DNA from: Terriglobales bacterium
Lineage (GTDB): Bacteria; Acidobacteriota; Terriglobia; Terriglobales; Acidobacteriaceae
Length of the DNA: 52,546 nucleotides
Direction of reading: 5' to 3'
Assembly: GCA_035624455.1 (NCBI GenBank)
Contig: DASPRM010000108.1
Location: 1 to 52,546 of the forward strand
Position numbers and translations under genes: made by a program. Of this stretch, positions 4,581 through 24,744 are shown piece by piece. The first letter of the stretch is position 1; every line of letters begins with the position of its first letter. Under the pieces are notes generated by a model. That model had not been told where the DNA came from, searched no databases, and saw only the letters and a program-made list of their open reading frames with translations.

Positions 4581-5627
4581 TTAAACAGGTCGAGGTTGCT
4601 GAAACGTTTTGTTCCTCAATTGGCCGGGATCGGACAAGTTCCGGCGTAGATGTTCTCTTGCAGAATTGATGGAATGACGCACGTCCTGGCTCGAGCGTCC
4701 GCTGATAGCAGATATTTCCTCAACATTGAACCCTTCAATCCCAAACAGTAGAAATGCTTCCCGGTCTTCCCGCCGAGTGCCACGCAATGCGCGTTCCACC
4801 AGGTTTAACATCTCATCGGAGGCCACCGTGTCTTCCGGGGAAGCGGCGGAACGATTGGGAATCAGATTTTCTTCGGTGATGGTTTCATCCGGTTGGTGGA
4901 ACTCGACGTAAGCTTCGTCGCTGTGCCGCTCCAACTCTTCCTGCGGCCGGCGGGGATGCTCTTCCAGTGATACCGCGTCGACGCTATCACGCTGGCGACG
5001 CGGCAATTCGTTCATGGCGCGCACCGCCAGGCGATAAATCCAGGCTTCCAAGGCGAGCTTCTCGGGTTTTTCTCCGTCGCTAAGAGCATTCGCGATGGCT
5101 TCGTCGATCACTTCTTCGGAGCGAAGCTGGAAGGGAGTAAGCTCACCCAGGCTCTCCCGGTAGCGCAACTCGCGTTCGACAAAGCGCTGGAGTCGCGAGA
5201 GATTAGCATTCACATATCCACTGATGTCCTCGTCGGAGACCTTGGGGGCCTGCACTGCCGCGAGCGTACTTTCAAACGGAACCTGCTCCGGAGCACGGCC
5301 CTCCTTCTGACGGCGTGGCCACTGGCGATGATTGCGCAGCCGGGCTTTATGACGTGTAATCTGTTGAATCAGATCATCAAAGGCACTCTTGATGGCGGTA
5401 GTGACCGTGGGCGCACTGTTGCTGGTGGCGATGTCTCCGGAAGGCAGCCGCAGGTCCAAGCGTACAAGGATTCCAGCTCGGGCTGGTTGGTCTTCCAGAA
5501 TGGCGTGGAGATGAACTAACTCAGGACGGAAAACCTGCAGCCTTTTCCGCACTTTTTGAATTTGTAAGTTGATTTCCCGTTCGACGTTGGAGTTCTTGGA
5601 AAGTTTATAGCTGATGTGGACATTCAT
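4581..5627 (-). CDS. Ribosome hibernation factor (HPF/RaiA) domain fused to ECF-like sigma factor
   Basis: A 348-residue chimera. Residues 1-105 look like an HPF/RaiA/YfiA domain: an MNVHISYK opening strand, a basic VRKRL helix, a VRLDLRLPSGDI strand pair, then an AIKSAFDDLIQQITRHKARLR helix. HPF domains bind the 30S decoding site and silence ribosomes. Residues about 138-212 resemble sigma region 2, including the AWIYRLAVRAMNELPRR core-binding/-10 segment. Residues about 272-332 resemble sigma region 4, with a helix-turn-helix around 298-328 (EGFNVEEISAISGRSS... then AREHLRR). An acidic linker (about 220-265) joins them. Known HPF long forms end in a dimerisation domain instead. No frameshift is needed. 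It is first in an operon with the baeRF gene. Which activity is live, if both, cannot be seen. Confidence 0.75.
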   Translation of the reverse strand: MNVHISYKLSKNSNVEREINLQIQKVRKRLQVFRPELVHLHAILEDQPARAGILVRLDLRLPSGDIATSNSAPTVTTAIKSAFDDLIQQITRHKARLRNHRQWPRRQKEGRAPEQVPFESTLAAVQAPKVSDEDISGYVNANLSRLQRFVERELRYRESLGELTPFQLRSEEVIDEAIANALSDGEKPEKLALEAWIYRLAVRAMNELPRRQRDSVDAVSLEEHPRRPQEELERHSDEAYVEFHQPDETITEENLIPNRSAASPEDTVASDEMLNLVERALRGTRREDREAFLLFGIEGFNVEEISAISGRSSQDVRHSINSAREHLRRNLSDPGQLRNKTFQQPRPV

Positions 5628-5680
5628 TCGTGCCTCGAATGCAGGATAAGTTCCTGCTAGCCCACTTATCTAGCAAGGAA

Positions 5681-5708
5681 ATTGTACACCTATACGATAA
5701 GAGGCAAG
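5681..5708 (-). promoter_or_regulatory. Possible sigma70-type promoter of the HPF-sigma/baeRF operon
   Basis: On the minus strand a TACAAT -10 (5686-5681) is preceded, after 16 nt, by CTTGCC (5708-5703), a weak -35. The start codon is 53 nt downstream of the -10. The -10 matches consensus at five of six bases, but the -35 is poor. The 5628-5880 gap holds nothing else I can name. A GGAACTT string nearer the start is too close to the ATG to act as an ECF -35. Confidence 0.35.
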
Positions 5709-7053: not shown

Positions 7054-8202
7054 CTAAACGGCTACGGTAAACGTCGTGTCCGTGCGAGTCACCGGCCGAT
7101 AGAGCGTGTCGCGCTCGATCGGCTCCCGTCCAGCTTCCCGGATCAGCCGCACCAATTCCTGGCGGCGCAGGCCCTGTGGAGTGGCAGCGCCAGCGTCGTG
7201 ATAGATCTTTTCCTCGACCACCGTGCCGTCGATATCATCTGCCCCGAATCGCAAACAGATTTGCGCGATCTTGGGCGTCAGCATCTGCCAGTAGGCTTTG
7301 ATATGAGGAAAGTTGTCCAGCACCAGGCGTGAAACTGCCATCTGCTTGATATCCGTAAAGCCGGTGGTCCAGGGAAGATGGCTCAGTGGCGTGTTGTCGG
7401 GATGAAACGCCAGCGGTATGAATGTCTGGAAACCTTGGGTGGCGTCCTGCAGCGAGCGCAGCTTGAGGAGATGGTCCACCCGGTCATCGTCGCCTTCGAT
7501 GTGGCCGTAGAGCATCGTGGCATTCGATTTCAGTCCCAATTCATGCGCCGTACGAGCCGTCTCCAGCCACTGATTTCCATCAATTTTGTGATCGCAGATG
7601 ATATGCCGCACGCGCTCTGCGAAGATCTCTGCGCCCCCGCCGGGAAGTGAGTCCACTCCTGCTTCTTTCAGTGCGACGAGGGTGTCGCGAATGCTGAGCT
7701 TGGCGCGCTTGGCCAGATAAGCAACTTCTACCATCGTGAACGCTTTCAGGTGAACCTGCGGAAAGCGCGACTTCAAGCCCGCGATCAGATCGAGGAAATA
7801 CTGAAACGGCAGGTCAGGATGCAATCCGCCGACAATGTGGAACTCGGTTACGGCTTCCGAGTAGCCTGAAGCGGCAGCCTGCCAAGCCTCCTCCAGCGCC
7901 ATGGTGTAGGCGCCCGGGGCGTCTTTCTTGCGGCCAAAAGCGCATAGACGGCAATAGGCCACACAGACATTGGTCGGATTGAGGTGGCGGTTGACGTTGA
8001 AGTAGGTTTGGTTGCCGTGATGGCGTTCCCGGACTGTATTCGCCAGCCAGCCTAGTGCCAGGATGTCCGTGGTGGCATAAAGCGCGAGTGCGTCCCGGCC
8101 ATCGAGCCGCTCTCCGGCGAACACCTTGTCCGCGATGGGTCGAAGTTGCGGATCGTCCGTCTGGAACGAGTGTCTGGTTGCCATCCCGGGCATTTCAACC
8201 AT
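7054..8202 (-). CDS. mqnE: Aminodeoxyfutalosine synthase (radical SAM), menaquinone pathway
   Basis: A 382-residue radical SAM enzyme of the futalosine route to menaquinone; MqnE joins SAM with 3-[(1-carboxyvinyl)oxy]benzoate to form aminodeoxyfutalosine. The [4Fe-4S] cysteines are Cys80, Cys84 and Cys87 (CVAYCRLC). Family blocks HIVGGLHPDLPF, HLKAFTMVE and LPGGGAEIFAERVR are all present and fit MqnE better than its relative MqnC. Three Met codons (residues 1, 4 and 7) compete as starts, and the first is kept. No other menaquinone gene is adjacent, but a UbiA/MqnP-like prenyltransferase lies 2.7 kb away. Confidence 0.88.
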   Translation of the reverse strand: MVEMPGMATRHSFQTDDPQLRPIADKVFAGERLDGRDALALYATTDILALGWLANTVRERHHGNQTYFNVNRHLNPTNVCVAYCRLCAFGRKKDAPGAYTMALEEAWQAAASGYSEAVTEFHIVGGLHPDLPFQYFLDLIAGLKSRFPQVHLKAFTMVEVAYLAKRAKLSIRDTLVALKEAGVDSLPGGGAEIFAERVRHIICDHKIDGNQWLETARTAHELGLKSNATMLYGHIEGDDDRVDHLLKLRSLQDATQGFQTFIPLAFHPDNTPLSHLPWTTGFTDIKQMAVSRLVLDNFPHIKAYWQMLTPKIAQICLRFGADDIDGTVVEEKIYHDAGAATPQGLRRQELVRLIREAGREPIERDTLYRPVTRTDTTFTVAV

Positions 8203-24138: not shown

Positions 24139-24744
24139 TTGACACAAGCGAAAAGACAGGTGGCCCCGGGGCTCTCGGAAGCCGAGGCGATATCCCGGGC
24201 CCAAAGGGGCGATGCGGATTCGTTCGAGATCCTCTATGGGCTCCATAAGCGACGTGTCTATTCGCTGTGTTTGCGCATGACGGGAAATTCGGCGGAGGCG
24301 GAAGACCTGACCCAGGAGGCGTTCCTGCAGCTCTACCGCAAGATCGGAACCTTCCGCGGCGAGTCGGCGTTCTCCACCTGGCTGCACCGCATGGCGGTGA
24401 ATGTGGTTCTCATGCATCTTCGCAAGAAGAGCCTGAATCAGGTTTCGCTCGACGAAACGTTGGAGCCGCAGCAGGAGGACGGCCCGCGCAAGGATCTGGG
24501 CGTCGAGGATAGTTCGCTGGCCGGCTCAATCGATCGGGTTCACCTGGAGCGTGCCATCGAAAGTCTGCCTCCGGGATATCGCATGATATTTGTTCTGCAC
24601 GACGTGGAAGGATTCGAACATAATGAAATTGCCGAGATGATTGGCTGCTCGATCGGCAACAGCAAGTCGCAACTGCACAAGGCGAGAATGAAGTTACGGG
24701 ATCTCCTGAAATCCAGCAGAGCCGAAAAGGCCTTAAAGCGGTGA
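24139..24744 (+). CDS. ECF RNA polymerase sigma factor (RpoE-like)
   Basis: A 201-residue group 4 sigma factor. Region 2 (about 22-95) has the [21 protein letters not shown] and [16 protein letters not shown] blocks and the [17 protein letters not shown] promoter-melting/-10 helix. Region 4 (about 130-192) has [43 protein letters not shown], the -35-reading helix-turn-helix. The start is TTG. An anti-sigma gene with a zinc-binding motif follows, so this is a signal-responsive pair. A GGAAC at 24081-24085 upstream might belong to an autoregulated ECF promoter, but no convincing -10 partner is seen. Confidence 0.93.

Follow-up and report, generated by a model that had tools for sequence, protein, structure and literature searches.

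Does a protein that carries a ribosome-hibernation domain and a sigma-factor-like module in a single chain act on the ribosome, on RNA polymerase, or on both? The question is raised by a gene in a 52,546-nucleotide stretch of DNA from a Terriglobales bacterium of the Acidobacteriaceae (contig DASPRM010000108.1), referred to here in its entirety as the window. To our knowledge, the hibernation of ribosomes and the hibernation of RNA polymerase are usually treated separately, and a ribosome-parking domain joined to a sigma-derived module, encoded beside the hibernation factor Balon, opens a physical link between the two machines to direct testing. The evidence described below moderately favors the explanation that the protein is a hibernation factor, with an HPF domain that behaves like RaiA on idle 30S subunits beside Balon and a C-terminal sigma module that does not select promoters.

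The fusion gene and its domains

The gene is an unbroken frame of 348 codons, ATG to stop, on the minus strand (5627–4581), and the plus-strand reading contains stops (Table 1). A single uninterrupted frame of this length had been predicted originally, with no strand given, and this was confirmed.

Table 1. Features of the fusion locus, in window coordinates.
Feature	Position	Strand	Basis or remark
Conserved promoter-like element AGGTGTACAAT	5681–5691	minus	GGTGTA[GC]AAT shared upstream
Leader between promoter-like element and start codon, with GAGG ribosome-binding site	5628–5680	minus	Sequence
HPF / pseudo-sigma fusion gene	4581–5627	minus	348 aa; range includes stop codon
HPF/RaiA domain, residues 1–101	5325–5627	minus	PF02482 above cut-off; RaiA fold match
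Linker 1, residues 102–130	5238–5324	minus	Reduced pLDDT, largely unstructured; dN/dS 0.094, 18 pairs
Sigma region 2-like domain, residues 131–216	4980–5237	minus	Three predicted helices; column counts
Linker 2, residues 217–262, bears family motif	4842–4979	minus	Low pLDDT; dN/dS 0.08
FHQPDE motif, residues 243–248	4884–4901	minus	QPD[ED] in 61/79 family proteins, 0/15 ECFs
Sigma region 4-like helix-turn-helix domain, residues 263–331	4635–4841	minus	PF08281 above cut-off; structure
Balon-type hibernation factor (baeRF family 10), 388 aa	3394–4560	minus	PF18854 66.2 bits; model match Msmeg1130

Two Pfam models matched the protein above their cut-offs: Ribosomal_S30AE (PF02482) at residues 13–98 (32.8 bits, E 1.2e-7, cut-off 23.7) and Sigma70_r4_2 (PF08281) at residues 285–327 (32.1 bits, E 9.2e-8, cut-off 25.7). 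Matches below cut-off were Sigma70_r2 (13.4 bits, cut-off 24), the PhyR sigma-like model PF22233 (25.8 bits, cut-off 27) and the sigma70-ECF model TIGR02937, which spans residues 139–331 (36.7 bits, cut-off 42.9). The C-terminal domain of long HPF proteins (PF16321) was not found in the protein up to E 10, and its Pfam matches include no receiver domain.

The AlphaFold2 model of the whole chain, built from 74 sequences (mean pLDDT 83.3), is confident in the HPF fold (residues 1–101), the sigma-2 helices (132–216) and the sigma-4 helices (264–341). Confidence is low at residues 107–111 and over most of 222–250, in the linkers, and the pTM of 0.38 means that the domains have no defined mutual arrangement in the model. 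The solved structure nearest to the N-terminal domain is a RaiA (8rd8_D; Z 15.2, rmsd 1.3, 98 aligned), that of the P. urativorans ribosome bearing Balon and RaiA. The C-terminal part aligned with the ECF sigma factor 9m9e_F as two domains in a differing arrangement (Z 9.9, rmsd 19.2, 161 aligned), and region 4 alone with the ECF sigma factor 5fgm (Z 9.7, rmsd 2.8, 65 aligned); Foldseek concurred. Because Z values of about 9–10 are common among small helical domains, the assignment of the sigma part leans on the sequence match. The HPF-like N-terminus of the original prediction is thus borne out by both profile and fold. Its sigma regions are supported as well: region 4 is recognized above cut-off and the helices of both regions are modeled, while the region 2 and ECF profiles fell short.

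Across 18 independent pairs, with synonymous sites near saturation, dN/dS was 0.065–0.108 in every segment, linkers included. All segments of the fusion are thus under purifying selection, and the sigma-like module is maintained. A chance fusion is excluded by the recurrence of the same architecture in dozens of genomes.

The protein shares with HPF/RaiA (YfiA) the PF02482 domain above cut-off, the RaiA fold, the position beside Balon and the capacity to be the sole HPF of a genome, but it differs in its sigma-derived C-terminus of about 240 residues, where long HPF has PF16321 and RaiA has nothing. In an archaeal system described in the accessible text of PMC13324472, HPF is likewise joined to a regulatory module put to a new use, although there the module is a CBS module, the hosts are Archaea and the HPF domain is C-terminal. 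The section of that 2026 study on HPF domain evolution, in its accessible text, names no sigma fusion. No published description of an HPF-sigma fusion or of its context was found in the literature accessible to the search.

Distribution, sole-HPF genomes and the adjoining Balon gene

The original prediction turned in part on whether related genomes keep the fusion, and many do. 57 of 100 relatives (the window's own genome counted) had a match to it at E 1e-5. Inspection of the individual rows shows the fusion in 36 of the 60 genomes of the window's own family (f1) and 13 of the 14 genomes of its sister family (f2); these labels denote sets of genomes. Named genomes were also scanned, and 80 loci were retained, nearly all from MAGs, with titles such as Acidobacteriota, Terriglobia, Acidobacteriaceae, Sulfotelmatobacter, Angelobacter and similar; alignment A3 excludes seven of these whose start or end is not clean, and alignment A1 omits L042. 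In a phylum-wide draw, 24 of 396 genomes matched at E 1e-20; they belong to families f1, f18, f22, f41, f63, f66, f73, f74, f85 and f87; one of these matches is partial (residues 1–213) and one begins at residue 120 at a contig end. A class-wide draw gave near full-length matches (1 to 331 or beyond) in 18 of 299 genomes, and in many others the matches were limited to an HPF standing alone, mostly in f7, or to ordinary sigma factors.

PF02482 was found in 97 of the 100 relatives' genomes. The window's own genome encodes a separate, normal long HPF with PF16321 in addition to the fusion, and this C-terminal domain is found in 54 of the 60 f1 genomes versus none of the 14 f2 genomes. In f2, 13 of the 14 genomes have PF02482 matches, each one inside a fusion gene. 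One f2 genome (G072) has two fusions, and another (G069, 82% complete) has neither a fusion nor a PF02482 match. In family f8 the fusion is the sole HPF found in two genomes (G079 and G087), and a third (G094) also has a short HPF. As no other HPF was found in f2, the HPF domain of the fusion very probably works – the strongest argument that the HPF part does the job of an HPF.

The same counts bear on whether the sigma part has replaced the C-terminal domain of long HPF as a ribosome-ribosome (100S) dimerization module. In f2, where that domain is missing and no HPF other than the fusion was found, the extra module could have assumed dimerization. This explanation is improbable overall, given that most f1 genomes keep the domain, the window's own genome in a normal long HPF, and that the fusion itself gives no PF16321 match.

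The gene downstream of the fusion, a neighbor that the original prediction had not recognized as a Balon, starts 20 bases past its stop codon on the same strand. The AlphaFold model of its product (pLDDT 86.7, pTM 0.77) matched the mycobacterial Balon Msmeg1130 with Z 31.0 (rmsd 3.0, 348 aligned) and the P. urativorans Balon with Z of about 25, and the best archaeal release factor aRF1 with only 18.6; as modeled, the product has a Balon fold, nearer to Balon than to aRF1/eRF1. Three NCBIfam equivalog models scored below their cut-offs (NF052287, 45.4 against 330; NF052288, 42.4 against 480; NF052289, 26.2 against 320). According to the accessible parts of PMC6514570 and PMC10901736, Balon or baeRF genes adjoin RaiA/HPF genes, and RaiA and Balon have been shown together on idle ribosomes; the accessible part of PMC10901736 also lists alternative sigma-70 factors among Balon-operon products. 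The window has the same adjacency of Balon and HPF but differs in joining HPF and sigma in one chain, an arrangement not described in those parts of the two papers.

At 70 of the 80 named loci the fusion is followed by a Balon frame on the same strand, and 3 of the other 10 loci end at most 316 bases from the fusion. The fusion and baeRF10 co-occur among the 60 f1 genomes (own included): 27 have both, 9 the fusion only, 3 baeRF10 only and 21 neither (Fisher p 3e-6). Thirteen f2 genomes likewise have the fusion without baeRF10. At fusion loci without baeRF10 the commonest neighbor family is a LysM/transglycosylase protein, not a stress gene.

The survey of neighbors covered 130 frames, identified with a simple rule, at 36 Acidobacteriota fusion loci from f2, f8, other families and f1 (four loci, L047–L050). 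The commonest Pfam families were LysM and SLT (12 each), aminotransferase (7), and acetyltransferase and SpoU methylase (5 each), with lower counts for baeRF10 and CofH_C (3) and STAS (2). These frames have 138 Pfam families, and the commonest 25 include no anti-sigma family, a range that a rare one could escape.

These results can be set against a PhyR-like decoy, in which the protein would be a sigma mimic that titrates an anti-sigma factor when ribosomes idle. PhyR combines a receiver with a sigma-like domain that serves a purpose other than promoter reading. The fusion resembles it in the sigma-like domain, and PF22233, just short of its cut-off in the window protein, exceeds it in the relative L051 (31.2 bits); in addition, a STAS gene is directly downstream of the fusion in L232. 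However, the fusion has no receiver domain, the ordinary r4_2 model outscores PF22233 in the window protein, and anti-sigma families are absent from the 25 commonest neighbor families, all of which leaves the decoy very unlikely.

Several loci have individual arrangements. In most of the f2 loci L033–L046 a LysM/transglycosylase gene comes after the fusion. In f73 a STAS-domain gene follows it (L232:4396–4734, minus strand, and a matching gene in L237), and genome G687 has a second fusion copy (L226) that is followed by a baeRF10 gene instead of STAS. In f11 (L084:3775–5341) a stand-alone HPF-type frame of 122 aa overlaps the baeRF10 gene, so that the pair exists there without fusion. In the window, the first minus-strand gene upstream of the fusion (7054–8202) resembles, by reading, the menaquinone enzyme MqnE; L047 and L049 also have an MqnE-like frame ahead of the fusion, and CofH/MqnC matches were found for three of the neighbor frames.

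The sigma-like module compared with ECF sigma factors

The stretch from sigma-2 to sigma-4 aligns end to end with the ECF sigma factors of the window's own genome and has the same domain order and linker place. It differs from ECF sigmas (TIGR02937) in the region-2.2 Gln and other residues, in an additional QPDE motif and in the attached HPF domain. The comparison was made by alignment column between 15 ECFs of the same genome and 79 fusion-family proteins, with four phylum-wide rows (L240, L242, L243 and L244) excluded from the counts; the assignment of columns to core or promoter contacts follows the general sigma literature.

The region-2.2 Gln is present in all 15 ECFs and is replaced by Asp or Asn in 76 of the 79 family proteins (Asp175 in the window protein). 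Asn203 is found in 13 of the 15 ECFs versus 3 of the 79 family proteins, the window protein having Arg, and Arg210 in 14 of the 15 versus 15 of the 79, the window protein among the latter. Trp196 (72/79) and Glu176 (65/79) are retained across the family. The core-side residues Glu172, Glu176 and Trp196 are mostly kept, which fits docking to polymerase but also a living sigma factor.

Mean net charge falls in the family as well, with p-values that are indicative only since related sequences were treated as independent. In regions 2.3–2.4 it is +3.8 in the ECFs, +1.2 in f1, +1.6 in f2, +1.2 in other Acidobacteriota and −1.0 in Proteobacteria; in the region 4.2 helix the values are +3.6, +1.8, +0.4, +0.2 and −1.7, respectively. 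The f1 group overlaps with the ECFs in the charge of both helices. The window copy has +4 in regions 2.3–2.4 (ECF range 2 to 6) and +2 in region 4.2 (ECF range 1 to 5), and with its Arg210 and ECF-range charges it is among the more sigma-like members. On these sequences, promoter reading by the family as a whole seems unlikely, and within f1 it would be the less likely of the two options.

Another ECF sigma factor, an ordinary one, is encoded in the same window (24220–24705, plus strand; TIGR02937, 113.4 bits).

A conserved element precedes the fusion gene. GGTGTA[GC]AAT is found in 57 of 71 upstream regions (72 collected, 71 kept; 0.04 expected), 58–93 bases ahead of the start codon, at loci within L094–L169. 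In the window's own genome RGGTGTASAAT has two copies, the fusion's own and one other (L214), whose adjoining genes are uninformative by reading; the reversed control gave one match. Autoregulation or a regulon through this element was dropped as a candidate, and these genome matches were not counted as evidence for a sigma. At least two sequence classes can be told apart among the leaders that follow the element. In 42 of 68 leaders (the set omits 3 of the 71, which lack the motif) the GAGG site is paired in a predicted hairpin, with a mean z of −0.6. A consensus leader structure did not survive alignment, the hairpin had no covariation support, and leaders from nine sources had no Rfam match; a structured RNA leader is not claimed for these reasons.

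In one of the two options of the original prediction, the protein would be a functional ECF sigma factor that waits on hibernating ribosomes and, once freed, drives a stress or outgrowth regulon. The end-to-end alignment with the ECFs, the r4_2 match above cut-off, the region-4 core kept in f1, the Arg210 and ECF-like region 2.3–2.4 charge of the window copy and the strongly conserved upstream element all speak for it. The sigma-like features of the window copy make it slightly more probable, and the hibernation explanation slightly less so. It is nonetheless the less supported option and unlikely: the region-2.2 Gln and Asn203 are replaced, Arg210 is mostly lost, charge is lost across most of the family, no anti-sigma family is among the 25 commonest neighbor families, and the exact promoter motif has only two copies in the genome, against one for its reversed control. 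The other option there made the sigma part a ribosome-dimerization module; in the wider sense that this part has turned into another kind of module, it fits better than a working sigma.

The linker between sigma-2 and sigma-4 bears a motif of the form [FYW][HYWF]QPDE. QPD[ED] is present in 32 of 34 f1 proteins, 15 of 15 from other Acidobacteriota, 10 of 10 Proteobacterial proteins, 3 of 3 orf11 proteins (see below) and the one stand-alone sigma-like protein, and absent from all 16 f2/f8 proteins and all 15 ECFs. Among the proteins of named relatives, 68 of 73 have QP[DG][ED]. L240, one of the rows left out of the counts, is a fusion without the motif; the fusion persists in f2, f8 and L240 despite its absence. 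The position is where the linker of a real sigma factor would enter the polymerase cleft, and the motif may do so here.

A hibernation factor with a module that no longer selects promoters could work in three steps. The N-terminal domain would occupy the mRNA/tRNA channel of the idle 30S subunit as RaiA does – a step strongly supported by homology and distribution – and the Balon encoded just downstream would fill the A site beside it. The sigma-2/sigma-4 module, judging from the residue changes in the family, would have ceased to select promoters. More tentatively, this module and QPDE, on their flexible linkers, might dock to a partner, for which the face of core RNA polymerase that binds sigma is the likeliest candidate, and in stress idle polymerase would then be kept off promoters and held beside idle ribosomes. 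The full dual role, with the HPF domain parked on idle ribosomes, the pseudo-sigma module on core RNA polymerase and QPDE at the cleft, is a possibility of low probability; if true, transcription and translation would be shut down and stored together. The sigma-like window copy, the missing QPDE in f2 and f8, and the fusions without baeRF10 count against the hibernation explanation.

Members in Proteobacteria and the heat-tolerance island

Outside the Acidobacteriota the distribution is a lower bound, drawn from plasmid records, to which complete E. coli genomes were added for orf11. With tblastn, 20 plasmid records covered at least 80% of the fusion protein at about 25–32% identity; 292 records matched in all, most of them by short region-4 matches (FecI of Klebsiella and similar). 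The hosts include Burkholderia, Paraburkholderia, Paracoccus, Methylorubrum extorquens AM1, Shinella, Agrobacterium, Roseomonas, Cupriavidus and others. PF02482 was above cut-off in three of the five plasmid proteins scanned. Several of the plasmid members are annotated as sigma-70, sigma-28 or FliA, and proteins so annotated may not be sigma factors. The genes around the Proteobacterial members encode Hsp20, FtsH, an AAA ATPase, HdeD, YfdX and a cation:proton antiporter, or Hsp20, GroEL and DnaK. This placement among stress genes was counted in favor of the hibernation explanation.

An Azospirillum plasmid encodes a stand-alone sigma-like protein with WYQPDE, and the end of its gene overlaps the start of a baeRF10 gene. 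Through this protein orf11 of the tLST/LHR island was found (L245:4611–5756, L246:3611–4756, L247:3611–4756 and L248:3611–4756), annotated as hypothetical or uncharacterized. By hhalign, orf11 matches the fusion family over its full length (probability 99.8 over 330 columns), and its N-terminal 118 residues alone score 62.4, whereas 100 column shuffles reached at most 18.5. Identity to the B. anthina fusion is 32.8% over 92%, and EFYQPDD is retained. Pfam alone gives just r4_2, below cut-off (14.9 bits). orf11 is strongly diverged and differs from the other members in lying between HdeD and Trx genes, with no adjoining Balon annotated. By these matches, orf11 of the Enterobacteriaceae heat/chlorine tolerance island is a diverged member of the HPF and sigma-like fusion family.

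Separate trees for the HPF and sigma parts, in which 10 of 34 f1 and 7 of 14 f2 sequences were used, give the same main groups – f1, f2, f8, orf11, and the Proteobacteria with orf11 – as a single ancient fusion would predict. In the HPF tree, support for the split of the Proteobacteria is weak (0.46).

Of 5,426 complete E. coli genomes, 152 carry orf11 DNA; 297 plasmid records had some match to it, and 280 of them reached at least 60% identity. For this gene of unknown function the fusion family gives a first hypothesis, and if the dual role held, transmissible stress-tolerance islands would be bringing such a factor into enterobacteria. In the accessible part of PMC8407380, 7 of 13 deletions in E. 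coli MG1655 carrying the island cut heat or chlorine resistance, that of orf11 not among them, and membrane oxidation was unchanged by deletion of orf11; the accessible part of PMC5383660 reports orf11 as disrupted in LHR2. As far as these parts of the two papers go, the lack of a deletion effect and the disrupted copy count against an essential role of orf11 in acute stress.

Some plasmid loci have the genes in other arrangements. On the Azospirillum plasmid (L212:4531–6805) DUF5335, sigma-like protein and baeRF10 genes are consecutive, and a Phenylobacterium plasmid (L244) has DUF5335 with a similar sigma-like frame, which is split. A plasmid of Cupriavidus sp. P-10 carries a broken copy of the fusion (L205:5755–6699) that is annotated as two genes.
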